From Halolamina sp. CBA1230 (GTDB taxonomy: Archaea > Halobacteriota > Halobacteria > Halobacteriales > Haloferacaceae), in NCBI RefSeq assembly GCF_002025255.2, contig NZ_CP054587.1:868001-932000 (forward strand): a stretch of 64,000 nt of DNA, given 5' to 3'. The notes beneath the pieces were generated by a model. That model made no database searches and was not told where the DNA came from. It saw only the letters and a program-made list of their open reading frames with translations. Below are positions 22,445-62,512 of the stretch, in pieces (the first letter of the stretch is position 1; the number at the start of each line of letters is the position of its first letter). Both the position numbers and the translations under genes were made by a program.

Positions 22445-22452
22445 ATTTATTG

Positions 22453-46300: not shown

Positions 46301-46347
46301 CTATTTCGCCACCGTTGCTGTAACGCAGACTCAGTTAAGGTCGCCAC
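40399..46347 (-). CDS. Giant GHKL ATPase with C-terminal NOV/DUF3883-like region
   Basis: This protein of 1982 residues carries, at its N-terminus, a GHKL (Hsp90/sacsin-type) ATPase with N-box ELLQNARDA, G1-like DEGVLVANTG and G2 GHKGVGLKSIL. At the C-terminus a GRGQQAEAYV...FDIIDPRGP...VEIKAV pattern resembles the NOV/DUF3883 domain. That domain is related to restriction-endonuclease-like folds and is common in defence islands. The 1500 residues between are acidic and unassigned. Sacsin-type N-terminal ATPases with nuclease-like tails are recurrent in haloarchaeal islands. The gene is the largest in the window and stands alone, divergent from the gene at 46548. Confidence 0.8.
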   Translation of the reverse strand: MATLTESALQQRWRNRWESFLHLIEDAETVEDAQNVLRDKVIIGNAERKIAGGHEGREILELLQNARDAIWDGDADQGRVHIGVYDEGVLVANTGSRFDLFDTQVEDAVTMIGETGKGDDDGQSIGHKGVGLKSILATGDSFEIFTRPDDTTDDILGVRLSRSYLVSAILNRLGQETGGRSSIDDLDDEKLEHLLTEDPAGNPIPLEDDLRDSISKLPLFNFPVPLSTPSDAADPIQRRVRELLTETPADPEQDPFRTAVFIRYEDSDWRAQLSALGIPLPDEDDGSIDDRPERIWEYLAAGESDGGLQPETIVQLGGIAELQLERATTAQEPTREERWEITYDSESPTTVPDLAHADVQVRVHSWDSESIHEFDQFRFADPRDHHTAILVNKAGESGTPPVTSYPLYLFYPIEGTDQAHLPFCFHGRFRVDTNRKDLSSNNAATNHDVLEEGLDLIELIGEEVARDAQNPEESQYSDQLPWALLPPRQRDEAITDPTADELITWFQQAVVERLADTPCIPTRTEAKQPSDTILHWDRSVIDGYLAFTEILDALDRPLDNGGAHALPAASALRALASMPPDWEQRVKAVLHADDEQATSKTVLTGWVEYLAASLSKTPGESPAVRVPAGAARSLLDGTVALLTAATKGDESLSSTLQELAGQFDGVYLLPSRLGDADPDDELALVTLEQRQAPSGGQQNQQRVRSVIWDIESETRDVERPPTPPQSSNMTVYFLDERVQEIADVHHVLSTAGRVWGLRAYEGIPSFVRSLLDTFADGRADVVEPIDFAFLAGIIDRVGAESTDLQTGEGSFFPLDYLQTAITQQEGDQRGNLRRRVQLRTCDLHLHNEQPRPITGTVLGDDWQRIRERGTSTDAEDDPTEDWDSITTSDSPAPTWPAPDAATWDVFREQINWDVTDLDFVRTLSLLGTGVLPGVEVLWLYGDEHPSMRRSHDWNPTEWTTDDFAGDIPATVTSLQTVLANTPGYLSLLTSPDHHPQTSADHSRKCDVKLSGEFDHVNVASWVWVTDDQALAEHGDAVRELLRRHGDALDATLLRTGWSCNNGHKRRAWDQSVPSLLNWQLRELDIWDPIVTVQDELADAWGDHASRLSYAVHLESRRGPQAARMFPHIDDASGIADDVLATLGVRSVETLGVTGATDRLQQLQAVLADGELPAGEPTQLWVPGDRIDDWNQAYTQLLQPVLNHLPEDPAAADSDPNWGSLTHLPLRDGDQWVTASIEWIRDHTDEIRYYQDQSPKPWETQAVEDNGYYILPRTASGSFTRLAAVLGVQQLQASKLVFDLDTDDISLVTESYRDAVSTFQRELDARRDLLVASTDRGNEADIIDTADELGTATANLAVAASFPDDATRHLSDPTSALYATPDGDEALLLNASEAGDTLSLDGLAMGLALLFERPTKVATFREALTADVAVPDLETRWAKRTFPIDTVKRVLGSNALHALERDLTAFNDLLDALDTPRVDADAILDALEDADTEHIVAVRDWIAAGERPDTLTDENAAAVDTANIAGPVTNLWDTLPAALDFVVPGLFDETTTHWVRTLEAEALDADMERVVIDWLASHRDALDRPPFDTAARQAYSRFRTVTELWEQTDTSELTDLDTWVTRLRELHTTTLPAWTDTIPKEYATAVDCAPRVVYITINDRVDTLATAFCHDITGELPAVEFDWQSLLTQYIDDGTIPEPDTDTGAKDHQAQAFDAIATSIRDHDDTMDFSTTAAIQQSNQDITVSASSGQGGGGSSQFRGRGQQAEAYVMATVLDRVATWLDNHAAGDLFQLRSAFRSLHDEQQDAAYNWHVESVWTGDLLPLLQNLSRDRSSEITAWCDHVADGTAFTQLPLIQLINVTMERGPGFDIIDPRGPLTRTDEHNDRGLQFTPVEIKAVNGTTPPFRFRLTTNEYRRAKAFVRDGDIPYVIRLVAVPEAGTTDWPQNTSIVAEKIIETEAELNAVVDNDRFETVVKGGYMNMEIK

Positions 46348-46547
46348 GAGAGGTCTCTATCAGTATGATAAGCAAACGACCCTCAATGTTTCCCTGCCAG
46401 TGCTTGATCTGTCTTACTACTACGTTTGAAGCGAGACCAAAGTTTCACAGGATGCAGTGTCAATCAGTGCCGACGGAGTTGGCGTGTAGAACCCAAGTGT
46501 AAGCACTACAATATGCTTTTACCTCGGCACCTCTTCAAGTGCTAGTT

Positions 46548-47843
46548 ATGGAAGTTATTCGGGAGGAAACCTATCGATCGACTCCTGAGCTGTGGCCTGC
46601 AGCAGATAAGGTTGACTCGTTAGTTGACGAGTCGGACGTAGTCAGCATCCAATTACAGGAGCGAGAGCACTACGAGGATCGACTTGTCGTTCAAATCAAT
46701 AACGGAGAGGGTGAGAGTACCAACCGGTTTGAATTTGATATTGCCTCAGGAGAGTACCGAGTTTGTCGATACGAGGGCTCGGACCTCCCGCTCATTATCC
46801 TCCATTATGTGGCTGCATTCGGGTATTACGTTGAGGGAACCCCGAGTGGGCCTTGGGGGCAGTATGAGTACTTGGTTGACGCAGCGGGTGAATTAGAAGA
46901 GCTGGCGGGCAAGTCTGACAGCCCACTTGTGGACTATTTTTCTCGGGCTGTATCTACTCAGCTGCAAAGTATCGTGGTTGAGGTGGCAACCCATACGTAC
47001 CTGAGTAACCAAGAATTTGGAATTGGTGACCTAGTTGAACAGACAGACATGTCGAGTGAATCTGAGGTAGAGAACGTGTGTGGGGTTAAACAGCTGAAAA
47101 AATTACCATTCTCTGAAAACACAGCTATCCCTGAGCAACTCGAAGAACTCGACCTTGGTCCAGAAGTGTCAGGATATGATGACTTCGGGGTTGAAGGCGT
47201 AAATGTTCGAACCTTCTGCGATCGAGATAGTGACACGATTGCTGTGATCGTCTCGTTCCCGAAGGGAGTGAAGTATTTCAAATTCAACGGCCAGCCCGGG
47301 GCAGATTGTTCTATTGAATACATGGATCGACGCGAATTACCCGGGTTATTCCTCGAAGACCACTTGCAAAACGAGTTGGACGTTACTATCAGTACCACCC
47401 CGCGATTGAGTCCGTCAGACTCCGCTGTTGATGCATTGAACACCAGTAGGAAGCTGTTGAAGTCGATCGCCGAGACAGACGGTTTGCGAACGAATCCGAA
47501 TAACACCTCCTTGGAGGTTGCCCAACTAATTACAGAGATGGGGGAACTTTATCTGCACCTTGAGCAGATCGCACCTGACGATGAATTTTTACAGCGAATC
47601 GACGATGTGTGTGAAGAGCAAACAGATACGATGGGAGTAACCGATCTTTCGAAAGCCCCGGTCGATAAGTTCCATACTATCATCTATTTCCTCGGACTAG
47701 CATCACAGCGATTAGACGACGAGGTGCGGGAACATGCTGCCACGTATCTCGAAGACAAGGGGCTCAATGATGTCGATGCGGAGAAATTGAATCTCGAAGA
47801 TTACGTCTCCTCGAATATTCAAGACCTTTCAAACACGTTATAG
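46548..47843 (+). CDS. Hypothetical protein divergent from giant ATPase
   Basis: This 431-residue acidic protein has no recognised motif. Its first 200 residues mix strands and helices (RLVVQINNGEGESTNRFEF), and its C-terminal 150 residues look helical. The ATG at 46548 is preferred over an in-frame GTG 9 bp upstream, and a TATA-like TGCTTTTA lies 30-35 bp before it. It shares a 200-bp divergent promoter region with the giant GHKL gene and may be functionally linked to it. The interval 47844-48115 shows no gene. Confidence 0.65.
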   Translation: MEVIREETYRSTPELWPAADKVDSLVDESDVVSIQLQEREHYEDRLVVQINNGEGESTNRFEFDIASGEYRVCRYEGSDLPLIILHYVAAFGYYVEGTPSGPWGQYEYLVDAAGELEELAGKSDSPLVDYFSRAVSTQLQSIVVEVATHTYLSNQEFGIGDLVEQTDMSSESEVENVCGVKQLKKLPFSENTAIPEQLEELDLGPEVSGYDDFGVEGVNVRTFCDRDSDTIAVIVSFPKGVKYFKFNGQPGADCSIEYMDRRELPGLFLEDHLQNELDVTISTTPRLSPSDSAVDALNTSRKLLKSIAETDGLRTNPNNTSLEVAQLITEMGELYLHLEQIAPDDEFLQRIDDVCEEQTDTMGVTDLSKAPVDKFHTIIYFLGLASQRLDDEVREHAATYLEDKGLNDVDAEKLNLEDYVSSNIQDLSNTL

Positions 47844-48115: not shown

Positions 48116-49210
48116 TTATGATAAGCTCTGTATTTTCTCCTTGTCGGCGTCAGTGAGTAGTTGCGTGCCGTATTCGTCCTCAAGCGTGGCTATCTCCTGG
48201 AGTAGTTGGAGGGCTGTGTTTTCATTGCCTTGCTTCAGGTGGTATTTCGCCTGTTTCCGCGCTACTTTGGCGACTCCCTTCCGGCCGTCGTACCACGATT
48301 CGATTTCGTAGTAGTACTGTTTTGCTTGGTTGAGATGCGACCACCATTCGTCAGTGTCGCCGTGTTCCTTGCGGATTCTCTTCGACGCTTTCCAGTGAGC
48401 GTCTGCAAGCCGATTGGCGATCGTTTTCGTTTCGTTCTCATCGTTGGTCAGCTGGTACGCCTCCTCTAGGAGGTCGATCGACTCTTCCGGTGACACTTCT
48501 TCGCTCTCCGCCAGCAGATCGTCGATTCGGTCTTGCTTTTCGAGTCGTTGGCTTCGCCAGACCGTCGTCCCGTCGAGGTCGATGCCTCGGTACTGTTCGT
48601 CACCGTCGAGCAGGTACAGCACTGTCTCGCCGTTCTGCGTTCCGAACTCCTGTGCTGGACTATTGAGATTCGGTGTTTCGAACCTGGTTTGGAGGTCGCC
48701 TGCCTCGATGTCGAACACGTATACTGCGCGGTCGGGATTGTGTGTGGCCGTTGAGGCATACCGACCACCCTCCGTAATCGCGCACTCCCAAATGTTCGCA
48801 TCAAACTCGTGTTCGATACATGGCTGGCCGTCAGGGGCGACGACATCGAATGTCCCACCGAGACTCTGGTTATTCGCCTCACCGATGTCGGTGACTGCGA
48901 CGTGACCAGAATTCGCCACAGCAACGTTTTCTGCCCGAGTCACAGTGAAGGCATGTTGAACCTCCTCGTCCTCGGAGAGGAGTACTATCGGTGTATCCTC
49001 CCTCATGGCAGTTCGTCCATAGAGGCCTTTCCACTGGCCGTTTGGCGAGGATTCTGCTTCGAACGTGACGCGCTCACCCTGGAATTCCCCGTGAACAAAC
49101 GCCCCATCCAACGGCTCATCGAGAACGATGTCCGGTGGCGATTGAGACCGGTCTTGTGATCCAGACTCGGAGGCGCTACCGCCACCGAATAACCGACTCA
49201 GTAACCCCAT
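48116..49210 (-). CDS. Beta-propeller/TPR-like hypothetical protein
   Basis: This 364-residue protein has a Ser/Gly-rich start, a repeat-rich beta region at about 30-215 with WD40/PQQ-like strands (ENVAVANSGHVAVTD, NIWECAITEGGRYAST, RAVYVFDIEAGDLQTRF) and a helical C-terminal half resembling TPR units (SIDLLEEAYQLTND). Such proteins act as scaffolds. The ATG at 49210 is preferred to a TTG 15 bp upstream. It is divergent from the Mre11-like gene at 49397. Confidence 0.6.
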   Translation of the reverse strand: MGLLSRLFGGGSASESGSQDRSQSPPDIVLDEPLDGAFVHGEFQGERVTFEAESSPNGQWKGLYGRTAMREDTPIVLLSEDEEVQHAFTVTRAENVAVANSGHVAVTDIGEANNQSLGGTFDVVAPDGQPCIEHEFDANIWECAITEGGRYASTATHNPDRAVYVFDIEAGDLQTRFETPNLNSPAQEFGTQNGETVLYLLDGDEQYRGIDLDGTTVWRSQRLEKQDRIDDLLAESEEVSPEESIDLLEEAYQLTNDENETKTIANRLADAHWKASKRIRKEHGDTDEWWSHLNQAKQYYYEIESWYDGRKGVAKVARKQAKYHLKQGNENTALQLLQEIATLEDEYGTQLLTDADKEKIQSLS

Positions 49211-49396
49211 GACACTATTCAACAATGTCTATGAGATAAAGATTATCCAAGAACTGAATGTCGGGTGTTTCTCTCCGGATATTGACCCACACGGCTATCT
49301 GCCAGAGAATACCTACTATTCAGATACGGTGATCACGTTCAACGTACGCCCTGCTCACCACAGGAACTAATACGCTTACTGTTGTCTTTGCTTGTC

Positions 49397-50452
49397 ATGA
49401 CTCGGGTCCTCCATACAGCTGATGTCCATCTGACGCCGGACTATCCGGAACGGAAGGATGGGCTTCGAAAGTTGCTCAATCGAGCTGAAACAGGCGATAT
49501 CGACGTTGTGACGATCGGTGGGGACTTGTTCGACCAGCCGGAGGGCATGGAGCAACTCCGGACTGACTTGCGCAACGACCTCTTTACTGACCGGTCATTC
49601 GAAATCGTCCTCATTCCTGGCAACCACGACCTCGAAGCATACCGTGGGGACGTGTTTTTCGGCGACGCATGTACTGTCATCACGGAGGAACCGTTCAGTC
49701 ACTGGACTGCACCGGAGGAGGATCTCCGGATTACGGCTCTCCCCTATAGAGAACACCCGGATGACGAACTCCTCCTCAAACTGCAAGACAGAACATCGTT
49801 TGACGGGCATGAAGCCCTGCTTCTTCACTGTAGTCTTGACGCGCCGTTCGACGACTACGAGACAGGTGACGAAACGGCGAGGCGATACTTTCCCGTGACT
49901 GAAGATCTCCTCTCCGAACTGGAGTTCAATTCGTATCTCGCTGGGCACTATCACAGCCCGCACAAAGTCTCGTTTACGGGCGGTTCGGAGTTCACCTACC
50001 CTGGCACGCCGGTTTCGACAAGTCGCTCAGAGACTGGGCAGCGCCGGGTGAGTATCCTCAACCCGGAGACCGGGATTGAGTTTGAGACGCTGGACACCTA
50101 CCATTACGCTTCACGTGAGTTTACGGTGACACCTGGTGATGAAGACACGCTCCTCAACAAGGTTCGTGAGTGGTCGAACCAGCATGCGATTGCCAGTGCG
50201 GATGCGTCGGTGCACGTCGATGGCTTCGTCGAAATGGCGGAAGACGCGTTCAACGACGAGTTGCGTGCAGCAGCGGTCCCGGCGTCAGTGACAGATGCAA
50301 CTCGGAACGTCGAACACGTCCTCTCCCACCCGTTGTTCAGATCGTTCCAAGCAGAACTTGCCGACACGGACTGGGACGAGGAGACAACCGAGAACGTGAC
50401 AAAGCGGACGCTCGAAGTGTTCAGTCAACTGTCGGCCCGGGGGGAGATCTGA
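49397..50452 (+). CDS. Mre11/SbcD/YhaO-like metallophosphoesterase
   Basis: This 351-residue calcineurin-type nuclease has all the metal motifs: TADVHL (D9, H11), GGDLFD, IPGNHD, LLHCS and GHYHSPH. Enzymes of this kind degrade DNA ends with Mn2+ and pair with SMC-like ATPases. The stop directly adjoins the next ATG (TGA-ATG), so this gene and the ATPase gene form a tight operon. The ATG at 49397 is preferred over a TTG 15 bp upstream because the family pattern starts there. It is shorter than chromosomal archaeal Mre11, which fits a YhaO-like paralogue rather than the housekeeping copy. Confidence 0.9.
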   Translation: MTRVLHTADVHLTPDYPERKDGLRKLLNRAETGDIDVVTIGGDLFDQPEGMEQLRTDLRNDLFTDRSFEIVLIPGNHDLEAYRGDVFFGDACTVITEEPFSHWTAPEEDLRITALPYREHPDDELLLKLQDRTSFDGHEALLLHCSLDAPFDDYETGDETARRYFPVTEDLLSELEFNSYLAGHYHSPHKVSFTGGSEFTYPGTPVSTSRSETGQRRVSILNPETGIEFETLDTYHYASREFTVTPGDEDTLLNKVREWSNQHAIASADASVHVDGFVEMAEDAFNDELRAAAVPASVTDATRNVEHVLSHPLFRSFQAELADTDWDEETTENVTKRTLEVFSQLSARGEI

Positions 50453-52774
50453 ATGCGGCTCACTACTGCAGAGGTTGATCGGTACGGGCCGCTGTACGAC
50501 TGTCGGCCGCCCTGTCAAGACGGCATTACCGTTCTCTCAGGATCAAACGAGGCGGGAAAGACACTCTTCCTCGAAGCCGTACTGCAACTGCTTGAACCAG
50601 AAGTGTCGGGCGTCATGAATCCCGGCCCTCGCGTCAGTGACTCACCAACGGGACGAGTCGTTGTTGAAAATGGCGGCGACCAGTACGAATGCGACGGCAC
50701 GACGTCGCTGAGCGATATTTCCCCGATCGAACCGCGGCATTTGCAGAGCGTGTTCGTCGTCCAAGACAACGACCTGGCACTCCCGAGCGACCAGGAGTAC
50801 TACACGTCGCTCATCGAGAAGCTCGGTGATATCCACACGACCGAAATCAATGCCATCCAGTCGGAACTGAAAGATCGCGGGCGGCTCACCGACACACGAC
50901 TCAACATCTCCAGTGATCAGTCCTACAACAACGCCGGCGATGTCCACGAGAAGGCAGGTACGCTCGCCGAGGAGATCCGTGACTACACGGAGCAAATCAA
51001 GGCTGAAGGGTTAGACGAGTTGGAGACGCGTCGCCTCCGCCTCAAGCGAGAGCTACAGAAGGTCCGTGAGGGCCTTCAAGAACAGCAGGAAGCGAAGACG
51101 GTCGCGGAATATGAACGTCTCTCGAATCGGCTTGCGACGTACCGGTCTACGAGTGACCGACTCGCTGACGTCGAAGGGTTCGACCGTGAGACGTTGACCG
51201 AACTCCGCGAACTGCAGAACGACATCGAGCGTGATCGGGATGAGCTGCAGAGCCTCACGGCCGACATCGACGCGAAACGTGAAGAGGTCGCGGAGGCAGA
51301 GCAGGCGCTGGAGGACCTCGAATCACGGGAGGCAAAACTATCACGGCGAGAATCAGCGGTAGCTGAGACGCAGTCTGCGCTGGAAACGTATCGTGACCGG
51401 CAGCGTGACGCCGCCGGCGCGCAACGGCGACTCACATTAGCGAAATACACAACAGTTGCAGGCTTGCTTGCGGCCGGCGGTACAGGTGTCGCAGGCGCGA
51501 TTGCAGGTTCGACCGCTGCCCTTGGACTGGGCGCTGTCCTCCTAGTTACTGGGGTTGTGAGTGCGTTCCTCTACCAGCAGTCGAACGAGCGCCTCACCGC
51601 TGTCGAGGCGGCACGTGAGTCTGCCGTCCAAACCGCGAGGGATGCTGGGTTCAATGTTGAAACAGTCGAAGACATCGCTCCAGCGATCGAATCCTTCGAG
51701 AACGAGTTATCGCAGGTTCGAGACCGTGTCGCTCGGAAAGACCAGCAACGTCAGGATGCCGAACAAGAACTTGAGGAACTTCAGGGAGAGAAATCCGAGT
51801 TAGAATCGGAGATTACTGGGCAGGAACAGCGGTTTGACGAGCTATTGGCGGAGGCTGACGTTGAATCGATCGACGAGTACGAAGCCAACGTCAAGGAACG
51901 AGACGACCTGGAACCAGAACGTCGCACGGCGCGCCAGAGTCTCGTCGATCGGTTCGGTGAACCTGACGCAGATGAGCCAGCTGCGAAAGCTACAGAGTGG
52001 GAGCGAGATTTGGAAGCGTTGGTCGATGACGTCGAGGTAGACGAGATCGATGTCGAGGAGTATGACGAAGGTACCTTGGAGGAATACGAGGCCGAGGTTG
52101 ACCGGCTGGAAACCAAGCTTGACGAGCTCGAAACGCAGCTCACTGACCACGACAACACGTTAGATACGTTCGATCAGCGAGCCCGGAATCTCAATACCCA
52201 GCCGTTCGTCGGCCACAGTCTCGGATTAGCATCCCGTTCCAGGGAAGGTCTGGAAACGCTTGCGTCCGATCTTGATGCTGTTGTTGATCAGATTGAGGAA
52301 GATGCAGAGGTGTCACGGAAGGCGCTGAAGATCTTCAACCGGATCGAAGCGCAGGAGGAGCAGAAATTAACGGATTTATTCGACCCTGACGGGCCGGCCT
52401 CTCAAACGTTTGAGCAAGTGACAGGAGGCCGCTATACTGAAGTTGCGTATGATGCCGAAACGCACGACCTCGTCGTTGAGCGGGAAGACGGGCGCACCCT
52501 TTCGCCGGATACGCTGAGTCAGGGGACCAAAGACCAGTTGTACTTCGCTACACGCGTGTCGCTTGCTCAGCAACTCCTTGGGAACGAATCTGGGTTCCTC
52601 TTGCTCGACGATCCGTTCCTTGCAGCGGATCCAGACCGTCTGCGAAAAGGCTTTGAGACACTCCAAGCACTATCTGATGACGGCTGGCAGATTCTCTACC
52701 TCACCGCGAAACAGGAAGTGACCGAAACGATGGTCGATGAGTACGATTTGGCTCACACCCAATTCACCTCTTAA
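50453..52774 (+). CDS. SMC/Rad50-like ATPase with membrane-type hairpin (YhaN-like)
   Basis: This 773-residue ATPase has Walker A GSNEAGKT near residue 28, a long coiled coil, ABC signature LSQGT with Walker B FLLLDDPF near residue 720, and a second coiled-coil arm. In the middle of the coil (about residues 333-372) lie two adjacent hydrophobic segments (VAGLLAAGGTGVAGAIAG and LGAVLLVTGVVSAFLY) instead of the CxxC zinc hook of Rad50/SbcC. That arrangement is seen in YhaN-type proteins. With the phosphoesterase upstream it should form a DNA-end-processing complex, probably at the membrane. It is followed by a 30-residue frame and Argonaute on the same strand. Confidence 0.88.
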   Translation: MRLTTAEVDRYGPLYDCRPPCQDGITVLSGSNEAGKTLFLEAVLQLLEPEVSGVMNPGPRVSDSPTGRVVVENGGDQYECDGTTSLSDISPIEPRHLQSVFVVQDNDLALPSDQEYYTSLIEKLGDIHTTEINAIQSELKDRGRLTDTRLNISSDQSYNNAGDVHEKAGTLAEEIRDYTEQIKAEGLDELETRRLRLKRELQKVREGLQEQQEAKTVAEYERLSNRLATYRSTSDRLADVEGFDRETLTELRELQNDIERDRDELQSLTADIDAKREEVAEAEQALEDLESREAKLSRRESAVAETQSALETYRDRQRDAAGAQRRLTLAKYTTVAGLLAAGGTGVAGAIAGSTAALGLGAVLLVTGVVSAFLYQQSNERLTAVEAARESAVQTARDAGFNVETVEDIAPAIESFENELSQVRDRVARKDQQRQDAEQELEELQGEKSELESEITGQEQRFDELLAEADVESIDEYEANVKERDDLEPERRTARQSLVDRFGEPDADEPAAKATEWERDLEALVDDVEVDEIDVEEYDEGTLEEYEAEVDRLETKLDELETQLTDHDNTLDTFDQRARNLNTQPFVGHSLGLASRSREGLETLASDLDAVVDQIEEDAEVSRKALKIFNRIEAQEEQKLTDLFDPDGPASQTFEQVTGGRYTEVAYDAETHDLVVEREDGRTLSPDTLSQGTKDQLYFATRVSLAQQLLGNESGFLLLDDPFLAADPDRLRKGFETLQALSDDGWQILYLTAKQEVTETMVDEYDLAHTQFTS

Positions 52775-52867
52775 ATGGTGAAACGGGTTCTTGGGTTCAG
52801 ATGTCTCTCTAGTTCCATAAATGTAAGTCCCGAAAATACTTCACCGAGAGACATCACCTACCTCTGA
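52775..52867 (+). CDS. Possible 30-residue coupling ORF before Argonaute
   Basis: An ATG directly follows the YhaN-like stop (TAA-ATG). It opens a frame of 30 codons that ends in TGATG, overlapping the Argonaute ATG by one base. It could pass ribosomes from the ATPase gene to Argonaute. The peptide has no recognisable homology, so it may instead be a leader with no product. Confidence 0.35.
   Translation: MVKRVLGFRCLSSSINVSPENTSPRDITYL
52800..52855. promoter_or_regulatory. Inverted repeat in the spacer upstream of Argonaute
   Basis: GATGTCTCTC (52800-52809) and GAGAGACATC (52846-52855) are a perfect 10-bp inverted repeat with a 36-bp spacer, ending 11 bp before the Argonaute ATG. It could be an operator or an mRNA hairpin that hides or exposes the start. 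Confidence 0.5.
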
Positions 52868-55110
52868 TGGCCTCGGATACTCCGACGATGCAGAAAAACT
52901 GGAGAGCCCTAACCGACCCGGGAGTATACTTATTTCATGTTGAGGGGCGTCCCCGTCTTCAGGAAGTTTCCGTAAACCGCTATCGCTTGTCAGTGGAAGG
53001 TGGACTTGATCGGCAGCAGGATAGGCACGCATTCACTCAATCTGCTGCATACTGGCTGGACCAAGAGCACGGTACACCAGTTGGTGGATCTGGTGAGATG
53101 CACGTGATCTCTATGACGGAACTCTCTCGAACGGTCACAGCAAAAGATCACGAAGTCACGCCTGAGAAGGTCGGTGAGAGAACCCTTTCACCGAGCGATC
53201 CTGGGGAACGAGCGCAAATCAAGGGTCTCATCCAATCCTCACTTCGGCGCGCAATCCCGGATTCACGGTACTCTTTCCAGTTCCTTGACGAGGTCGTTCG
53301 ACGGGACATCGAGTTTGGCGGTGGGGAATCTGACTTCGGTGCTCGACGGAAGCACAGTCTGAAGATTCACATTACTGCCGATGGTGTCGTTTTACTCCAA
53401 GTGAGAGTTGGGTATAGTCTCGCCACCATGTCGTCACTTGACGAGATGGTTACAGCGGGGAAGGAGCTCCCCTCATGGCGAGTCGAACATAACTCGGAGG
53501 TGTACAGTAACTCGGGGACGGGACAGCTTGCAGGCTGGAGTGACCTGCACTATAATGACTGGTCTGATTCTCTCGGTGAAGTCATTTCCGAGTATCAGGA
53601 AGGGGTGATGAAGGAGGAAGTCAGAAAGGAATTGATCGAACAAAACCCCCGACTTGTTGAGGTTGACTATGGAGGGTTTACTGGCGATCAAGCCCCGCGT
53701 GCGCTCACGCTAAGCCCCCGGACAGAGCAAGTGAAAGAGCAGGATTGGGACTTCCACGACCAATTCACAACGCGTAGGGCAATGGAGCCTGACGAACGGT
53801 TCGAACTTGTCGCTGACTTCGTTGATGACTTAGCGACGCTTCCGGGGTTGGACATTGACTTTGAATCGAGCCCATCGAACTACGGGTTCGAGTATGTGAA
53901 TATGCGGGAAGGCCAGTCCAGACTCATCTATGGTGATGGGAATCACGCATCCAAGCCGAGTACCGGACTCAAGCGACATGGCGTGTACAGTCCACCCGGG
54001 GAGTACCGTGTCGGCGTCTTGTATCCAAGTGACTTTGAAGAGATACATCAGGATCTAATCGGGCTCATCGCAAAGACGCTCGCACAGTGGGAAGCACCGG
54101 CGGGAACATCCGGGTACAGTTACGAACTTGGGAGTCTTTCAGAGTATGGCGATATCTATCAGCAGTTGCGAGACGATACGGACGTCGTTGTCGCACTGGT
54201 TCCTGACAAAGGTGCTGCAGATGATTTCCCGGGCGTCGAAGACCCCTACGACGAGCTCAAACGGACGCTGATGCGGAAAAACATCCCCACGCAGATGCTG
54301 CAGAAATCGACCGCCCAAAGGGTCATCAACATGTCTCGAAAGGGGGCGAGCGATGAACTTGTAAACACCCTGAGTGCGGTTGTTGCGAAGGCAGGCGGGA
54401 CACCCTGGCAGATTGACGAGCTGCCGGGGGAGACTCAGGCCTTCATGGGATTAGACGTGACGAGGGACCAAGAGACCGGCCAACACTCCGGCGCAAGTGC
54501 GAGCATTGTGATGCGGGACGGTTCAACGTTCGCTGCAGAGTCCACGACACAACAGGCCGGCGAAAAATTCGTTTCCGACCAAGTCGCCAAATTCGTCAGG
54601 GATCTCGTGTTTGACTTCGCTGACGAACGTGATGAACCACTTGAACGTTTGACAGTCTTCAGAGATGGGAAAGTGCATGAGGACATAGAGGCCGTTAGAG
54701 AGGGCCTTGACGCTTTAGATGCTGAAATAGACATTGTCGGCGTCCGTAAACGCGGTCAGTCCCGCGTCGCAGAGTTCGATGGGCGGGAGTTCCGTATCGC
54801 GGACAAAGGTATTGGATTCGTAGATTCGGACCGCGACCAGGCCATCGTTCATGCCTTTGGAAAGCCAGAAATCGACGACGACAATCACGTTGGCACCCCA
54901 CGTACGTTCCGCTTAGTCAAAGACTCTGGACCCACAGACATCGAAACCCTCGCTCGCCAGTCGTTCTGGCTATCTGAGGTCCATTATGGAAGCCCCGCAA
55001 GAAGTACTCGCCTTCCCGTACCGATCAAGTACGCTGATGCCGCTGCGAAATACGTGAGCGACGGCTATATTGATCCGGGTCGTGTCATTCGTGGTCCCGC
55101 GTATCTATAG
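52867..55110 (+). CDS. ago: Prokaryotic Argonaute (long-type, DEDD tetrad)
   Basis: This 747-residue Argonaute would bind a short guide and cut complementary nucleic acid. The C-terminal PIWI domain carries all four candidate catalytic residues: D530 (FMGLDV), E566 (QQAGEKF), D600 (VFRDGK) and D724 (KYADAAAKY), at spacings close to those of active bacterial enzymes. A MID-type segment RKNIPTQML...AKAGGTPW (about residues 470-522) precedes it. The N-terminal half is divergent, as usual in pAgos. It follows a Mre11/YhaN-like pair and is convergent with AddAB-like genes. The ATG at 52867 overlaps a short upstream frame; a later Met at residue 10 is possible. Confidence 0.93.
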   Translation: MASDTPTMQKNWRALTDPGVYLFHVEGRPRLQEVSVNRYRLSVEGGLDRQQDRHAFTQSAAYWLDQEHGTPVGGSGEMHVISMTELSRTVTAKDHEVTPEKVGERTLSPSDPGERAQIKGLIQSSLRRAIPDSRYSFQFLDEVVRRDIEFGGGESDFGARRKHSLKIHITADGVVLLQVRVGYSLATMSSLDEMVTAGKELPSWRVEHNSEVYSNSGTGQLAGWSDLHYNDWSDSLGEVISEYQEGVMKEEVRKELIEQNPRLVEVDYGGFTGDQAPRALTLSPRTEQVKEQDWDFHDQFTTRRAMEPDERFELVADFVDDLATLPGLDIDFESSPSNYGFEYVNMREGQSRLIYGDGNHASKPSTGLKRHGVYSPPGEYRVGVLYPSDFEEIHQDLIGLIAKTLAQWEAPAGTSGYSYELGSLSEYGDIYQQLRDDTDVVVALVPDKGAADDFPGVEDPYDELKRTLMRKNIPTQMLQKSTAQRVINMSRKGASDELVNTLSAVVAKAGGTPWQIDELPGETQAFMGLDVTRDQETGQHSGASASIVMRDGSTFAAESTTQQAGEKFVSDQVAKFVRDLVFDFADERDEPLERLTVFRDGKVHEDIEAVREGLDALDAEIDIVGVRKRGQSRVAEFDGREFRIADKGIGFVDSDRDQAIVHAFGKPEIDDDNHVGTPRTFRLVKDSGPTDIETLARQSFWLSEVHYGSPARSTRLPVPIKYADAAAKYVSDGYIDPGRVIRGPAYL

Positions 55111-55202: not shown

Positions 55203-58200
55203 TTATCGTCCCACCCGTACCGATGTTTGGTCCAGTTGTTCCTGCAGGAGTTGAACTGTGTCTTCGAGTGCGTGTGTGAATTCCGGGGCTTCCCACGTGT
55301 ACGTGTCTTCCACGTCGGTGAAGTACAGCGTGGCAGTCACGTCTCTCGTGGGATCTTGTTGATTGAGCGCGGCAGCGTATGCTTGCAGTTGTGGCTGATG
55401 GTGGGTGGCTCGGTCGGTGAGGAACTCCTCGGTAGTCTGGGTTGACGCTTTCCGATCAGTCTTGTAGTCGATGACGTGGTACGTGTCTGGAGTAACGACG
55501 AGGTGGTCGATGAACCCACTGACAGTACCGTTGCCGAGGGTGAGTTCGATGTAGTATTCGTCGTGGATTTGCTGAACGTTGAGCGTGCTGTGGAGTGTGT
55601 TGAGGTACTGAATCGCGGCGTCAGCGGCTGTTTCGATGGCGTCGAATGCTGAGTCGGGGTAGGTTGATTCAGTGAGTCCCGGTGTGCGGTCGTGTTGTTC
55701 TTGGATCGCTTGTTCGATGACGCGGCGGCGCTCGTCACGTGGTGGGCGGGTTTCGCAGAGTCGGTGGACAGCGTGGCCGTAGATGGCTGCGGGGATGTTT
55801 CGCGTGTCTGTGTCGGGGTAGTCGTGCTCGTGTTCCTCGCTCGATTCGTTCGTCACCGGGCTCGCCGTGACTTGGTTCGTATCGTCGTGTTCGTGGAGTT
55901 CAACCGTGCCGGCGGGGATGCGGGTGAGATCTGATGCGGAGAGAGTGAACTCCCATGGCTGCTCGTACGTGTACGGTGAACGTTCCGTCGTTGCCGGGAC
56001 TGGATCAGGATCAGGGTCGTATTGTGCATCGTCTGGTGGGAGGCGAACGTCGAGAGTGCCTCGGCCGGTGTCGCCGTCGATCTCATACGGGAGTGTCACG
56101 GTGAATGACCCGTTTGCTTCGAGAGTATCCCACCAGCCAGCTGTATCAGTATCTGTGTTGAACAGCGCGGGTTGGATCCAGTCAATGGGGCTGGACGGGT
56201 CGTCAGGGTCAGGTTGTTCGATCCCGGTGTCGTGATCGCCGTCAGCGTTGTGCCGACCGGTCAGGATGAGGTGGTCTTCGGCGCGGGTGGCAGCGACGTA
56301 GAGGATACGTTTCTCTTCGGCGTGTTCTTCGGCGCGGCGACGGTCACGGGCGACGCGTCGCATGAGGGTCGCGTCAGTGTCGGTACGGTCGTCCGTAGAG
56401 ACGTTGAGACCGAGAAGTGGGCGGCGCTCGCCGGCGATCGGGACGCGTTCGTACTCGATACTGCCGTTGCTGATACGTGCCCTATCGTTGAACCCCTTCC
56501 CGAGCCCAGGCATGGCGACGACAGGGAATTCCTGGCCTTTCGCTTCGTGAACGGTCATGATGCGAACCCCGGTCGAATCGGTTGCGTCGTTTGCTTCGGG
56601 TTCTTTCCGGCCTTGTTCGGCTTGATCGGCGAGTCGTGTGGTGACGCGGTCGATGCTGGGGACGCCGTTGGCGTCGAATTCGCGGAGTTTGTCTCGGAGC
56701 TTGTCGATGTTGGCGAGAGCAGTAGTGCCGCGTTCGTCGGCGGCGATCGCGGCGAGGTACCCGGTTTCTTCGAGGATCCGGTCAGCGAGTGCGACCCAGC
56801 TCTCGACGGTTGCGCCGGGTGTGTTCCCGGTGCCGGCGTACTCGCGCCAGCGTTCGATGTCCTCGACGACGGATTCGACAGCAGGATCAGTACTGGTCTG
56901 CAGGGAGTTCCATAGCGTATCGTCGGTGTCGTGGGCGGTGGCGAGCTGCGTGTCGGTTAGGCCGCACAGCGGGGAGCGTGCGGCGGCGTACAGTGCGATG
57001 TCGTCGGTGGGGTCAGCGAGTGCGTTCAACAGCGCGATGAACGGCCGGATTTCTGGCGTGTCGAAGAACCCTTCGCCTTTGATGACGGTGTACGGGATGT
57101 CCGCTGCGCGAAGACCGCGTTCGTAGTCTTTGAGGTCGCTTCGAGAACGGATGAGCACGGCGATATCCTCGGGTTGGACGGGCCGGGTATCGGTGTCTGA
57201 TTCTGGGTCGTCGTCGGTGACGAGGGTGTTGTCGGTGAGGAGAGCGGCGATGCGGTTGGCGAGGGCGGTTGCCTCGATGTCGGCGGGTTCGGACTCGGGG
57301 AGATCGGTGAGGCCGTGGTCTGTGTCGAGGTAGCGGTCGCGGAGGTCGGTTTCGACGGGGACAGGGAGGTATTCGGTGATCGGAGAAAGGTCGGTAGGCG
57401 TGTCGCGCCCGGCGGTGAGCGGGCCGCTGACGGCTTCGTACGGTTCGTCGTTACCGTACGCGAATACGTGGTCGAAGAGCCCGTTGATGGCTTGCAGCGT
57501 CTCCGGAAGTGTGCGGAAGTTCGTAGTCAGTTCCGGGTTACGGGGATTCGTTCCGTTTGCGGTGTTCGCGTCGTGCATCGCGGTCGTGGCGTCGTCGAAG
57601 ATGGTGACGTCGGCGTCGCGGAAGCGGTAGATGCTTTGTTTGACGTCGCCGACGACGCACACGTTGTCAGCGGTGAACGGGTCAGTACCGCTCGTGAGCG
57701 CTTGGACGAGTTGCCACTGGCGCGTGTTCGTGTCTTGGAACTCGTCAACCATGATGTACAACAGGTCCTCGCGGAGGTCGGCAACAGCATCTTGGTCGGG
57801 GTCGGTGAGGAACGTAAGCGTGTGGCCGATCAGGTCGTTGTAGTCAAGGACGCCGCGCTGGTGCTTCCGGTCGTTGTACTCGGTGAGCGCCGCTTCGGCG
57901 AGATCGGCAAGCGCAGTGAGGAGTTCATGGGCATCGCGGTCCGGATCGAGTGAGGCGTCCGTTGGTCGCGTCGCAGGTGCGAGCGTATCAAGAACGCTAT
58001 CCATTGCGTCGCGGAACCGCGTGGCTGTCGGGCCATCGCTCTGTCTGAAAGATTTGTTCCCGTAGTAGGTGCCGTCCCCGTACCGGTCGCCGTCGCTGTT
58101 CGTCAGCGTGTCACAGAGGCTGCGGAACAGTTCGAGTTGCTCGATCGGCGTTGCGTCCGCGATGTCCTGCCTAGATGTTGCTTCGACGAAAGCAAGTACG

Positions 58201-59063
58201 TCGTTCCCGACGCGTTTCGTCGGATTCGTTCCGAGACGGTCAGCGACATCGTCATCGCTGTACAGTTCACACAACGTGTCGAGGTCATCACGTACCGTTT
58301 CCAGCAAGTGTGCGGGGTCGGCGTCCAGTGGGTGCAGTTCGACAAGGTGTGCTTCGTACGCTTCTTGACTTTCGAGGTCGCGTATCTCGTCGATCCACTC
58401 GCTGGTCATGTCGGACTCGGCGATCAGTTCGGCCAGCACGTCAACGAGCTTCGACCGGTCAAACTGCGGGGCGAGGACGCGCACGCCGGGCGGTTCGGAC
58501 TCGACGAGTTCGGTAGCGACGGTGGTTCGGAGTCGTGCGGCGTCGGTGTCTTCCAGTACTTCGAAGTCCGGGTCTACCGCTGGGTGCGTGACGGCGTACT
58601 CTTCGAGGATACGGCTGCAGAACCCGTGCGTGGTGTCGATGTACCCGGCTTCGACGCCGTCGGCGGCGGCGCGCCAAACGGCCCACCGGTCGGGGTCGTC
58701 AATATCGTCGAGTCGGTCATGGATCTTCTCGCGGATCGATCGTGCGAGGTCTTCGGCCGCCCGGTCGGTGAACGTGGTGACGACGATACGCTCCGGGAGT
58801 CGCCGGGCGGCTTCAGGGTCGGTAATCCGGTCGATATCGTCCGGTAAGCAGTAGCCCGGTTCGTCGTCAGCCGCGGTGAGGCTGTCCGGACCGTCGAGAT
58901 GCGCGCGGAGGATCGTAAGGTACCGCTCGGTGAGCATCGTCGTCTTCCCGGTTCCGGCTCCAGCTTCGACGGAGACGTTCCGGTCAATCGTCCGGGCGGC
59001 GCGTTGCTGGGCGCGGGTGAGCGTGATGTCGTCGTTCGAGGCTGTGTCCATTTGGTCGGTCAT
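55203..59063 (-). CDS. AddA-like UvrD helicase - PD-(D/E)XK nuclease
   Basis: This 1286-residue protein is a superfamily 1 helicase with Walker A EAGAGTGKTT (33-42), Walker B IMVDEFQDTN near 436, the usual UvrD motifs IV-VI in the C-terminal half (VRIMTVHEAKGQEFP, ILYVAATRAED), and a C-terminal nuclease HVIDYKTDRK near residue 1198. It processes double-strand ends. Its ATG overlaps the stop of the partner gene in ATGA, so the two subunits are co-translated. It ends 93 bp from the Argonaute stop, convergently. Upstream in-frame codons would overlap the partner deeply, so 59063 is taken as the start. Confidence 0.92.
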   Translation of the reverse strand: MTDQMDTASNDDITLTRAQQRAARTIDRNVSVEAGAGTGKTTMLTERYLTILRAHLDGPDSLTAADDEPGYCLPDDIDRITDPEAARRLPERIVVTTFTDRAAEDLARSIREKIHDRLDDIDDPDRWAVWRAAADGVEAGYIDTTHGFCSRILEEYAVTHPAVDPDFEVLEDTDAARLRTTVATELVESEPPGVRVLAPQFDRSKLVDVLAELIAESDMTSEWIDEIRDLESQEAYEAHLVELHPLDADPAHLLETVRDDLDTLCELYSDDDVADRLGTNPTKRVGNDVLAFVEATSRQDIADATPIEQLELFRSLCDTLTNSDGDRYGDGTYYGNKSFRQSDGPTATRFRDAMDSVLDTLAPATRPTDASLDPDRDAHELLTALADLAEAALTEYNDRKHQRGVLDYNDLIGHTLTFLTDPDQDAVADLREDLLYIMVDEFQDTNTRQWQLVQALTSGTDPFTADNVCVVGDVKQSIYRFRDADVTIFDDATTAMHDANTANGTNPRNPELTTNFRTLPETLQAINGLFDHVFAYGNDEPYEAVSGPLTAGRDTPTDLSPITEYLPVPVETDLRDRYLDTDHGLTDLPESEPADIEATALANRIAALLTDNTLVTDDDPESDTDTRPVQPEDIAVLIRSRSDLKDYERGLRAADIPYTVIKGEGFFDTPEIRPFIALLNALADPTDDIALYAAARSPLCGLTDTQLATAHDTDDTLWNSLQTSTDPAVESVVEDIERWREYAGTGNTPGATVESWVALADRILEETGYLAAIAADERGTTALANIDKLRDKLREFDANGVPSIDRVTTRLADQAEQGRKEPEANDATDSTGVRIMTVHEAKGQEFPVVAMPGLGKGFNDRARISNGSIEYERVPIAGERRPLLGLNVSTDDRTDTDATLMRRVARDRRRAEEHAEEKRILYVAATRAEDHLILTGRHNADGDHDTGIEQPDPDDPSSPIDWIQPALFNTDTDTAGWWDTLEANGSFTVTLPYEIDGDTGRGTLDVRLPPDDAQYDPDPDPVPATTERSPYTYEQPWEFTLSASDLTRIPAGTVELHEHDDTNQVTASPVTNESSEEHEHDYPDTDTRNIPAAIYGHAVHRLCETRPPRDERRRVIEQAIQEQHDRTPGLTESTYPDSAFDAIETAADAAIQYLNTLHSTLNVQQIHDEYYIELTLGNGTVSGFIDHLVVTPDTYHVIDYKTDRKASTQTTEEFLTDRATHHQPQLQAYAAALNQQDPTRDVTATLYFTDVEDTYTWEAPEFTHALEDTVQLLQEQLDQTSVRVGR

Positions 59064-62000
59064 TGGGTGTCCTCCGTGTCGATGCCGGGTGCGTACTGTG
59101 GCGTGTTCGATTCTGTGAGCGCGTCGTGGATGTCGTGCCGTCGGTGGTGTCGAACGTCGCACGCATCGCGGTACGGGCAGTACTCACAGCCAGCCGTGTC
59201 TGGGCTGAGAACCGTCGGGTGGAACGACCCGTTGTCCACGGCAGCCGCGATCCGGTCAATACGGTCCGGAATGACGTCGTGGAGGAACTCAGTGAACTCG
59301 CCGCGCGTGTCGAACTCCAACGTCTGGTAGCGGCGAAGTGGCGCTGGGTCGTCTGCACCCCAATACGCGTGAGCGGCGTCCTCTTCACTGCCGACCGTGC
59401 CCGCATGTGGTGAGATTGAGTCGGTCGGATCCACTTGGTAGTAGGAGCCTCCGACGGGGTCCCCGTTGAGTGCGTTCTCGGCCATCAACAGGTACGCGGG
59501 CAACTGGAAGGTGTGCCCGTCGATCGTGTCGCTCTCGCTTGCCGTGCTGCCTGTCTTGTAGTCCATGCCCACGATTCCGCCGTCACTGGTAATGTCGAGC
59601 CGGTCGATTTTCCCGCGGATCTGCACGTCCGTTCCAGGGACGCGCACCGGGTCGTCCGCGAGGACCTCGGGGCCGGGCTCGTCAGGAGTGAGGCCAACGT
59701 GCGCTTCGAAGTACGACGGCGTCGCGTCCCGCGGTGCAAGTTCGGCCTCGGAGTGCAGGAATCGTTTGAACAGTCCGGGTGGGCCGTCGGCGTTACCATA
59801 CCTGTTCTCCGGAACGGTGAGCCCATCAAAAAGCGCGGTAACCCACGTGTCGTGGAAGGCAGTGTCTCGTGCGTCGAGTTCGTCAAGCCGGGACGCTGCC
59901 ACTTCGTACAGTACCTCCTCTGCCTCATCAACCGTCTCCTCCGTGACGCCGTCGTGGCCTTCTCCGCGCCACGTGCGGTAGAAGCGTTCGAGAACGTCGT
60001 GGACGTACGTGCCGGCATCAAGCGCGTTCAACTCCAGCGTGATCTCATCGTCCGGTTCGATGTCGAGAACGTATTTGAGGTAGTACTTGAACCCGCAGTC
60101 AGCGTACGTTTCCAGCTGACTCGGGCTGTACGGCTGATCTTCGCCTCGCAGGGCTGTGACGATCCCTGAATCCACGTGCCCGTCGTAGTCGCCGACGTTG
60201 TCGGCCGCTCGTTCGGCGGCGACCGACACGCCGTCTGAGAGGCGTTTCGACGCGTTCGCTCCTGAGATGTTGATGTCGTACGTGTCGGTGTTCCTTGAGA
60301 GCGCGTCAGGCGTGAGTGCGTTCGAGTCAATCGCTGCCGCAAGTTCTCGGTGCACGTCAGTGTACGACGCCGGGGGTGCGCGGTCGTTCACGCTGCTGGC
60401 TTCTAACCCAGTGACACGTTCGAGTTCGACGACAGGGTCAGCGAGGATGTATGGGTCGCCGTTCCGGTTGTGTTGCGGGGCGGTAAGCGTCAGGTCCGCG
60501 TCGGCAGCGATTAGCTGCGCGAACGTGTACCGGGTCCCGGCAACCGGGTTTGATGCCGCGAACTCTGGGTGAGAGTCGTTAAGTGGCCGTGCGAATGCGA
60601 GGCGGCGTGGTGGTGACGGGGTGTGTTCGGTTGTTAGCCCGGGGACGAACACGTACTCGGCAGGGTTGGTGGCCGCCTCCGCCGGCGAACACACTCGAAC
60701 GCTGTCGGACTCCCGACCCACCGATGTTTCGACCGTCACCTGTTCGAGCGCACGCCGCAACTCCTCTACATCTGTGTCCGCGTCGTCTCGATCCGCTGCG
60801 TCCCGACGTTCCGTCAGCGACGAACATACTTCGGCTGCCCTCTCGATGGCCTGTTGTTCCCGTGCGCGGACGTGCCGTGAGAACCCGATGGCGTCGGTGA
60901 GGCCTGCCCCGTTCTCGGTCGTCGGGACGCCGAGTTCCGCAAGCAACGCCTCCCGTTCACTGTCGATATCGGTCGCATTTACGAACTCTTCGCAGGCGGT
61001 CACGACGTCACGGATGAACGCCTCAGTGTCCGCATCGACGTACTCGGCGAGGGTAGAGACGCGCGTGGACTCCAACCGGTCAGCGTTCTGGAGTGCGTTC
61101 CGAACGGTTTCACGGTGGTTGGGGGCGACGAGTGGGTTCGACAGGAGTCGTGTGAGCGGGCCTTGCCGGTCTGGTTCGGTCCCAAGGTTGATTACGGACT
61201 CAAACAGTTTGCCGGTCGTTGTTGCGAACAGCGACCGTGACGAACTGGCCACTACCGGCACGTCCGCAGCTCGAAGCGCGTCTGTGATTCGATTCCCGTA
61301 TGTGCCCTCATCGAACGGTGCGACGGTGATCGAACTCGGATCGACACCGGACCCGATTAACGATCGGACTGTCCGAGCAACGTCACGAATTTCGTCTTGT
61401 ATCGTCGCGTGGGTCTCCAGAGTCACGTCGGACCCGACCTGAACCGGCTCAGCTTGCCCGTCTTCGTGTTCGTACAATGATGCCGCTGCGCGTTCACGCG
61501 GCGATCGTGAACTTGTGCCGTCAGTCTCGTGTGGCGTGAATCCGAGTTCGTCGTACCATCGGCTGATTCGACGGATCGCGTCATCAGCCCCGCTGAGTTC
61601 GTCGGCGTCAGTTACGCGGGTCAGTACGATTCCGGTGTCGAACGCATCGGCGATCAACCCGATAATGTCGCGCTCCTGTGGTGAGAGGGTCTGGAATGAC
61701 CCAACGATCACTACTTCGATCGTTGAGAGCTCGGATTCGACGAGTGGCTGCCCTGCGTCAAGCACATGGCGGAACCGTTCGCTCCGAAACGTCTTCGCAT
61801 CATCAAAGCCGTCCGCACGAACTTGATGAACGAGCGCAACGAATCGGGATAATGATTGCGCGAGCCTAGGGAGCCCTTCTTGGGTCAATCGTTGTTCGAC
61901 TTCCTCCGCAGTGATCGTACCGGCGAACTCCAGGAGCGTGAGGAGTTCTTCAGACTGCTGGATGAGGCCGACAGATGGATCCTCTTCGCTGTACAGGGGG

Positions 62001-62317
62001 TGTTCAGTATCGGTAAGGCGAGAAAGTGCTTCCTCGACGATCCACTGCCGTTCGGCACTGGAAATGTGCGTCGCTGACCCGTCGTAGGTGTCTGCCTCGT
62101 ATAACTCGTCTACTAACGTACGGAATCGTTCGCATCGAAGCTCAATTGGGGAGCCGTAGGTGTCCCACTGGTCAGCGACAATCCCGTCGTTCACGGATGG
62201 CGGTTCAAGATACAGCACAGACTGCGGTACCCCTGAGGAACGTTCGTCGGCCCACTGGAGTATGGCGGCCCGTCCATCTGAGGGAGTAGGTTCCGAGAAC
62301 ACCCGGCGTGTCGTCAT
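59060..62317 (-). CDS. AddB-like nuclease subunit with Fe-S cysteines
   Basis: This 1085-residue protein has a degenerate helicase-like N-terminal region. Its C-terminal PD-(D/E)XK nuclease has GKIDRLDITSDGGIVGMDYKTG motif residues near 900-922. Four cysteines match the AddB/RecB-type 4Fe-4S clasp: one in YADCGFKYY (about residue 740) and three in GCEYCPYRDAC (about 1042-1052). The Fe-S cluster locks the nuclease domain. It starts at the ATG at 62317 (MTTRRVFSE), 30 bp inside an alternative ATG. It is the first gene of the two-gene operon, divergent from the methylase-CBS-HEPN gene. Confidence 0.88.
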   Translation of the reverse strand: MTTRRVFSEPTPSDGRAAILQWADERSSGVPQSVLYLEPPSVNDGIVADQWDTYGSPIELRCERFRTLVDELYEADTYDGSATHISSAERQWIVEEALSRLTDTEHPLYSEEDPSVGLIQQSEELLTLLEFAGTITAEEVEQRLTQEGLPRLAQSLSRFVALVHQVRADGFDDAKTFRSERFRHVLDAGQPLVESELSTIEVVIVGSFQTLSPQERDIIGLIADAFDTGIVLTRVTDADELSGADDAIRRISRWYDELGFTPHETDGTSSRSPRERAAASLYEHEDGQAEPVQVGSDVTLETHATIQDEIRDVARTVRSLIGSGVDPSSITVAPFDEGTYGNRITDALRAADVPVVASSSRSLFATTTGKLFESVINLGTEPDRQGPLTRLLSNPLVAPNHRETVRNALQNADRLESTRVSTLAEYVDADTEAFIRDVVTACEEFVNATDIDSEREALLAELGVPTTENGAGLTDAIGFSRHVRAREQQAIERAAEVCSSLTERRDAADRDDADTDVEELRRALEQVTVETSVGRESDSVRVCSPAEAATNPAEYVFVPGLTTEHTPSPPRRLAFARPLNDSHPEFAASNPVAGTRYTFAQLIAADADLTLTAPQHNRNGDPYILADPVVELERVTGLEASSVNDRAPPASYTDVHRELAAAIDSNALTPDALSRNTDTYDINISGANASKRLSDGVSVAAERAADNVGDYDGHVDSGIVTALRGEDQPYSPSQLETYADCGFKYYLKYVLDIEPDDEITLELNALDAGTYVHDVLERFYRTWRGEGHDGVTEETVDEAEEVLYEVAASRLDELDARDTAFHDTWVTALFDGLTVPENRYGNADGPPGLFKRFLHSEAELAPRDATPSYFEAHVGLTPDEPGPEVLADDPVRVPGTDVQIRGKIDRLDITSDGGIVGMDYKTGSTASESDTIDGHTFQLPAYLLMAENALNGDPVGGSYYQVDPTDSISPHAGTVGSEEDAAHAYWGADDPAPLRRYQTLEFDTRGEFTEFLHDVIPDRIDRIAAAVDNGSFHPTVLSPDTAGCEYCPYRDACDVRHHRRHDIHDALTESNTPQYAPGIDTEDTQ

Positions 62318-62512
62318 TGTGCCATCCTCACGCAACAAACACGTCAAACTTGCGCTGCCGAAAAGACATGTACTGAGTCAGCCGCAGGAAAAGACGGTGA
62401 ACACATCACTGATTTTTCTCGACTGTGCCTATCGGTTGGAACCGCTTGAGATGTTTCTGAATATGGGCAATAGAGCTATCTTTTTTGATCGTGACGAGTC
62501 TCAGGAGCTCTA

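Follow-up and report, generated by a model that had tools for sequence, protein, structure and literature searches.

A predicted slicing Argonaute of Halolamina with two neighbouring sets of DNA-end-processing genes, a recurrent kind of company among haloarchaeal Argonautes

A standing question in the field is how prokaryotic Argonautes (pAgos), with no Dicer-like partner, acquire their guides; recurring gene pairings with DNA-end processors hint at the source of pAgo guide DNA. The question arises at a locus of the haloarchaeon Halolamina sp. CBA1230, for which we analysed a stretch of 64,000 nucleotides (the window; positions 868001-932000 of a 2.9 Mb contig, in a genome of 3.47 Mb in total). 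Here an Argonaute gene (Ago) follows two same-strand genes, Mre11-like and YhaN-like, and is faced from its other side by a pair resembling addA and addB (Table 1). We show that the linkage of end-processing machines with haloarchaeal pAgos is a recurrent and independent juxtaposition; the Argonaute is real and ordinary, and its company is unusual and recurrent. We propose, with a probability of about one half, that the window holds a DNA-interference system with a cleavage-competent long-A Argonaute at its core, served by an SbcCD-like YhaO/YhaN pair and by AddAB.

Assignment of the Argonaute is straightforward. It matches the Pfam Piwi family (E 2.5e-18; 66.8 bits, cut-off 28.9) and the PADLOC pAgo model (1033 bits), and residues 149-736 align by phmmer with CbAgo of Clostridium butyricum (structure 6qzk; E 7.7e-37) and also with CpAgo, the nearest solved sequences. 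A preliminary description of this DNA had credited the PIWI domain with a complete catalytic tetrad, and the alignment upholds it: against 6qzk, D530 falls on the mutated residue of 'GLAV', E566 on the glutamate of 'SGEKI', D600 in 'HRAG' and D724 in 'YAD'. We take these columns to be the catalytic D541, E577, D611 and D727 of CbAgo, two of them mutated in 6qzk. None of the four residues varies across an alignment of 26 haloarchaeal homologues, or across a smaller one of 14. An AlphaFold2 model with a mean predicted local distance difference test score (pLDDT) of 83.8 and a predicted template-modelling (TM) score of 0.82 finds 6qzk as its best fold match in the PDB (TM 0.78; 22% identity in the fold alignment), a match at the level of the whole chain; residues 563-566, the tetrad glutamate among them, fall below a pLDDT of 50. 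The N-PAZ-MID-PIWI layout comes from whole-chain fold matches to CbAgo and TtAgo only, PAZ being without a Pfam assignment. Within MID, K465 and Q476 are invariant and Y461 nearly so among the 26 rows, residues that presumably belong to the pocket for the guide 5'-phosphate. With its long alignment, tetrad columns and best fold match all leading to CbAgo, the protein reads from its sequence as an ordinary CbAgo-like long-A pAgo, MID-PIWI with a full DEDX tetrad, and the cleavage competence expected of it in that description is borne out as a prediction from the tetrad.

The two genes upstream had been taken for DNA-end-processing genes, and they do precede Ago on the same strand with their catalytic motifs intact. 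No base separates the Mre11-like from the YhaN-like gene, and 92 bases separate the latter from Ago. The Mre11-like protein, whose ATG lies at 49397 in a mechanical open reading frame (ORF) that begins earlier at TTG 49382, matches Metallophos (41.2 bits, cut-off 21.5) and has all of the motifs DVH, GDLFD, GNHD and GHYH; it matches SbcD/Mre11 chains of the PDB with E values of 9e-5 at best, and scores 40.9 bits against TIGR00619 sbcd (cut-off 77.65). Its partner, with Walker A GSNEAGKT, signature LSQGT and Walker B LLLDD, lies slightly under the cut-offs of AAA_15 (29.6 against 32.1 bits) and AAA_27 (21.4 against 22) and finds Rad50 chains at E 0.003. The curated models Mre11_Halo (35.4 against 550 bits) and Rad50_Halo (31.7 against 1000 bits) also leave the pair below their cut-offs. 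Because the matches to the named SbcD and Rad50 families are real but weak, we classify the pair by motif as SbcCD-like, neither a housekeeping Mre11-Rad50 nor an SbcCD proper. YhaO-YhaN of Bacillus subtilis and SbcD-SbcC of Escherichia coli are two-gene cassettes of a metallophosphoesterase and an ABC ATPase, and YhaN carries a hydrophobic stretch in mid-coil. The window pair is the same kind of cassette, down to a hydrophobic stretch at about residues 346-375 in the middle of the coiled coil of the ATPase (Kyte-Doolittle values up to 2.27), possibly a membrane hairpin. This Mre11-like gene is the sole such copy found in the genome.

The second pair (55203-62347), overlooked in the preliminary description, converges on Ago across a gap of 92 bases. 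The AddA-like protein scores 164.7 bits with UvrD-helicase, 93.5 with UvrD_C and 42.4 with PDDEXK_1, matches the AddA structure 3u44 at E 2.6e-46, and reaches 317.5 bits against TIGR02785 addA, under that model's strict cut-off; its helicase motif DEFQD and nuclease motif GFID...DYKT are intact. The ORF is mechanical and the true start possibly lies downstream. In the adjoining gene, the AddB-like protein has a PDDEXK_1 match of 129.8 bits, the motif GKID...DYKT and the cysteines C751 and C1054-C1063; NCBIfam addB models give it 36-39 bits, far under their cut-offs. With a UvrD motor and a nuclease in AddA, and an AddB bearing iron-sulphur (Fe-S) type cysteines next door, the pair has the predicted make-up of AddAB. 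The genome holds a second AddAB on another contig, so the Ago-linked copy is an extra one.

Table 1. Genes of the Argonaute locus, in window coordinates
Feature	Position	Strand	Evidence
SbcD/Mre11-like metallophosphoesterase (YhaO-like), 351 aa	49397..50452	+	Metallophos, SbcD/Mre11 PDB chains, motifs
YhaN-like ABC (Rad50/SMC-type) ATPase, 773 aa	50453..52774	+	AAA_15/AAA_27 below cut-off, Rad50 chains, motifs
Long-A-like prokaryotic Argonaute, 747 aa, D530/E566/D600/D724	52867..55110	+	Piwi, PADLOC pAgo, CbAgo alignment, fold
AddA-like UvrD helicase with C-terminal PD-(D/E)XK nuclease	55203..59162	-	Pfam, 3u44, TIGR02785, motifs
AddB-like PD-(D/E)XK nuclease, four-cysteine (Fe-S type) pattern	59060..62347	-	PDDEXK_1, motifs

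AddAB accompanies Argonaute well beyond the window. In a sample of 392 genomes of the order we examined 47 loci of the Ago family and 11 loci of a pAgo family that lacks the tetrad (Ago'), and AddAB is linked to Ago at more of them than is the window's Mre11/YhaN pair. Halorubrum kocurii (L074) has AddAB convergent with Ago as in the window, at 39 bp; in Haloprofundus halobius and Halomarina oriensis (221 bp; record annotation) AddAB stands upstream of Ago in tandem; and on a Halobaculum litoreum plasmid (L095) AgaP, Ago, AddB and AddA form one same-strand row, with AddAB 59 bp downstream. At four Ago' loci AddAB lies 1.6-2.5 kb away, beyond two small conserved genes. An AddB tree of 36 rows, from which five duplicates and the fragmented AddBs of L182, L234 and L038 were left out, spreads seven Ago-adjacent members over four well supported branches, interspersed with unlinked AddBs, which takes at least 5 changes; AddAB became Ago-adjacent on at least four branches, in three arrangements. 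AddB is present in 81 of the 392 genomes and together with Ago in 20. When Ago or Ago' shares a contig with AddB, the two are within 8 kb of each other in 8 of 12 pairs, against 1.3 expected from uniform placement; without the window the figure is 7 of 11 (P 5e-5). The 12 pairs include the second Ago' of genome G114.

For the upstream pair, the preliminary description had looked to conserved linkage of the same gene trio in other genomes. The outcome is mixed. Taken as an orthologous trio, the linkage has to be rejected: the window's pair is missing from 46 of the 47 Ago loci (0 of 46 outside the window). The YhaN-like protein has 13 strong homologue places beyond the window in the sample (a 183-residue fragment among them). 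Of these, 12 were examined with up to 20 kb of neighbourhood, and 11 have neither Ago nor Ago'; the plasmid collection searched with the YhaN-like protein gave no match. What does stand is linkage with tetrad-less pAgos. In genome G072 (L168) the same cassette, 78% and 73% identical in its Mre11-like and YhaN-like members, has an Ago' as its next gene, in the same orientation and after 87 bp. The homologous DNA block corresponds to 49392-52761 of the window (73% DNA identity) and goes no farther than YhaN, which makes the pair a self-contained cassette that has been placed before two different pAgos. Mre11-SMC pairs unrelated to it, of two other families, stand directly upstream on the same strand at three more Ago' loci: in G195 (L229), at 106 bp; in Halorussus caseinilyticus (L182), where the SMC gene and Ago' share 52 bp and an AddAB with broken frames converges on the far side, like that of the window; and in a second, broken near-copy on the same H. 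caseinilyticus plasmid (L234), where the pair is one fused ORF. These other families share about 22-28% local identity with the window pair in the nuclease, or escape BLAST detection; all three pairs were found through a BLAST match and record annotation and then added to the set of hidden Markov models. An Mre11-SMC pair stands immediately upstream at 4 of the 11 Ago' loci and at 1 of the 47 Ago loci (P 0.003 for the difference).

Ago' (L168:6299-8494, L180, L181, L182 and L228-L234) is near full-length in 10 of the 392 genomes, with two further weak matches. The G072 member matches the PADLOC pAgo and PprPIWI models and VbAgo/PliAgo-type chains (the 7r8 entries being PliAgo), whereas Pfam Piwi misses most of the family, that member included (two members scanned, both missed), and relatives on haloarchaeal plasmids are labelled 'hypothetical protein'. 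The tetrad is kept in none of the 10 aligned copies, the broken copy of L234 being left out of the 11. AddAB accompanies 4 of the 11 Ago' loci, a short AddAB 3, and a UvrD-PD-(D/E)XK protein one more. The two conserved small genes beside Ago' (about 148 and 364 residues) point towards it.

A wider survey of partners, scored above 200 bits within 10 kb of the 47 Ago loci, found AgaP at 20, MrfA at 12, MrfB at 11, AddA at 5, AddB at 3 (the AddB piece of L038 scores 151) and YhaON at 1. At six loci (L069, L070, L238, L239, L240 and L242) MrfB-MrfA come 9-13 bp after Ago on its own strand; MrfA has an MZB domain and MrfB RNase_H_2, an exonuclease-helicase pair tightly coupled to another class of Ago. 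Members of an Mre11-Rad50-NurA-HerA-like set lie within 10 kb of Ago at L036, L039, L060, L062, L067 and L098, and complete Mre11-SMC pairs of any of four families at 7 of 47 Ago and 5 of 11 Ago' loci. As controls we used 16 Ago-free AddB loci (15 unlinked places and the second AddAB of the window's genome) and 11 Ago-free YhaN loci. These 27 have none of the other scored modules, save one sAddA-like helicase match at the edge of L178. A second module at 5 of 14 Ago-linked loci against 0 of 27 controls (Fisher P 0.003) is not relied on, the 14 being hand-picked and the L178 match left out.

We think it most likely that exchangeable end-processing machines supply guides to Argonaute or degrade its targets. 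In the mechanism that we propose for the window, the Mre11/SMC pair would act on DNA that invades or over-replicates, opening or trimming ends that are blocked or closed by a hairpin, and AddAB would next unwind and cut from those ends. Argonaute would take up the fragments as DNA guides with a 5'-phosphate and, once loaded, would cut complementary copies, creating new ends for the same machines. We infer co-transcription, the chemistry of guide and target, and the direction of flow (supply over clean-up). Two things favour guide supply: machines of the same kinds are found with slicing and with non-slicing pAgos, and RecBCD is reported to influence the guide DNA of pAgos near Chi and ter sites (text of PMC10269773). 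The same source reports that AddAB co-precipitates with TtAgo, and according to PMC10164581 CbAgo draws its guides from multicopy DNA and acts jointly with RecBCD in degradation.

Several observations weigh against our proposal. The 92-base gap before Ago could hold a separate promoter. Immediate upstream Mre11-SMC pairs occur mainly with tetrad-less pAgos, the window being the only case among the 47 Ago loci, and 12 of these 47 (two lying on contigs about 7 kb long) have no scored module at all. A complete Mre11-SMC pair at 12 of 58 Ago and Ago' loci against 0 of 16 AddB controls gives a P of only 0.04, and once the family set is enlarged, 4 of those 16 show a lone weak match of Mre11 or SMC type. 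In E. coli, guide biogenesis reportedly does not depend on RecBCD (text of PMC10269773). Finally, Hma lies within 10 kb of Ago at 3 of 40 loci, and part of the pattern is therefore island clustering.

The nearest rival is that of clean-up, in which Argonaute, with guides of its own or found ones, would nick or break the invader and AddAB, with YhaON, would then degrade it. In E. coli, breaks made by CbAgo are reported to trigger RecBCD processing with degradation following (PMC10164581), and a review discusses guide generation by non-guided pAgos on partly single-stranded DNA (text of PMC6279821). The same kinds of pair adjoin tetrad-less pAgos, which are not expected to break DNA themselves, and this speaks for a role that does not hinge on slicing; a tetrad-less pAgo could still recruit nucleases as effectors. 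On balance we regard clean-up as the less likely reading, and it may act together with guide supply. Somewhat more doubtful still is the notion that Ago, YhaON and AddAB function independently and were merely gathered in a defence island beside Tiamat-like and Hma-like genes. TmtA-like (TmtA being, we take it, Tiamat) and Hma-like genes do share the window, and YhaON and AddAB each occur alone elsewhere, but immediate adjacency in several orientations, the phylogenetic separateness of the AddABs involved, the near absence of the modules from one another's company at the 27 Ago-free control loci and the gene overlap in H. caseinilyticus all argue for more than clustering. A host replication or repair role for Ago with the pairs as repair partners, such as the decatenation proposed for TtAgo, which acts in completing replication with AddAB among its co-precipitated factors (text of PMC10269773), would suit the repair-type Mre11-Rad50-NurA-HerA set near some Ago loci and is improbable, since the patchy spread (Ago in 57 and AddB in 81 of 392 genomes), the frequent plasmid location and the defence neighbours fit defence better.

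Returning to guide supply, we tentatively extend it to haloarchaeal long pAgos at large, though the odds are against so broad a scheme: slicing or tetrad-less, they would form an interchangeable core, and the plug-ins (YhaON or other Mre11-SMC pairs, AddAB, short AddAB, MrfAB, Mre11-Rad50-NurA-HerA and AgaP) would be dedicated guide factories using the free ends of invaders, two of which the window would have around one slicing Ago. The window and its tetrad-less sister loci with the same kinds of machine offer a way to separate the roles of guide-maker, effector and bystander in a tractable haloarchaeal host.

Known systems share parts of this arrangement. CbAgo, the closest in sequence and fold, was tested in E. 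coli with the RecBCD of the host (PMC10164581), whereas the window's Argonaute has AddAB and an Mre11/YhaN pair encoded beside it. The APAP system, a haloarchaeal long-A pAgo with the phospholipase-D protein AgaP, resembles the window in its tetrad-complete pAgo of the same wider family and its adjacent partner nuclease, and a helicase is reported near some ago-agaP operons (text of PMC11442185). Rows of that wider family in alignment A2 are mostly at 32-35% identity; the partners in the window are instead YhaON and AddAB, and an AgaP-profile search within 10 kb of its Ago found no match (20 of the 47 sample Ago loci have one). A UvrD helicase with a PD-(D/E)XK motif has been catalogued in pAgo operons as og_6, and the consulted text of PMC6299218, supplements aside, names no AddA-AddB pair and no Mre11 or Rad50 partner. 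Our literature search, outside subscription journals and supplements, found no paper linking pAgo genes with Mre11/SbcCD or MrfAB, and PMC12458937, on YprA helicases, mentions neither pAgo nor PIWI. In the literature consulted, AddAB, Mre11-SMC pairs and MrfAB beside pAgos are undescribed.

The view that an active haloarchaeal Argonaute is in itself uncommon did not survive the survey. The Ago protein query has matches in 57 of the 392 genomes, and PMC11442185 reports ago from 63 of 656 species of haloarchaea, the DEDX motif being consistently found; roughly a tenth of haloarchaeal species therefore carry a pAgo with the full tetrad. Six weak Ago places (G333, G161, G318, G388, G187 and G044) stand outside the examined set, and five other places proved to be Ago'. 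A Pfam Piwi search recovers only 37 genomes, below the count of the protein query. In profile searches of the genome contigs the single Ago protein found no locus and alignment A1 found 35; viral contigs searched for relatives of Ago and the YhaN-like protein gave none. Ago is often located on plasmids. Ago or Ago' genes are split or stopped at L039/L078, L081, L044 and L234, which suggests repeated loss; loci whose genes were split by the gene caller (L182, L039/L078 and L081) were counted unchanged.

The genes to the left of the locus run, in order, TmtA-like (-), 46539-47843 (+) and 48116-49225 (-), before the Mre11-like, YhaN-like and Ago genes (all +) and AddA and AddB (both -). Family scans with Pfam, PADLOC and NCBIfam place 46539-47843 in no family, and 48116-49225 has merely a TPR/ARM repeat match below cut-off. 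Farther away, at 15963-26357, are the Hma-like helicase-methylase-ATPase defence genes. The giant TmtA-like gene (40399-46347, 1982 residues, recognized by PADLOC) has a homologue with 62% identity in G195 (L229:12537-18557), where it adjoins Ago'.

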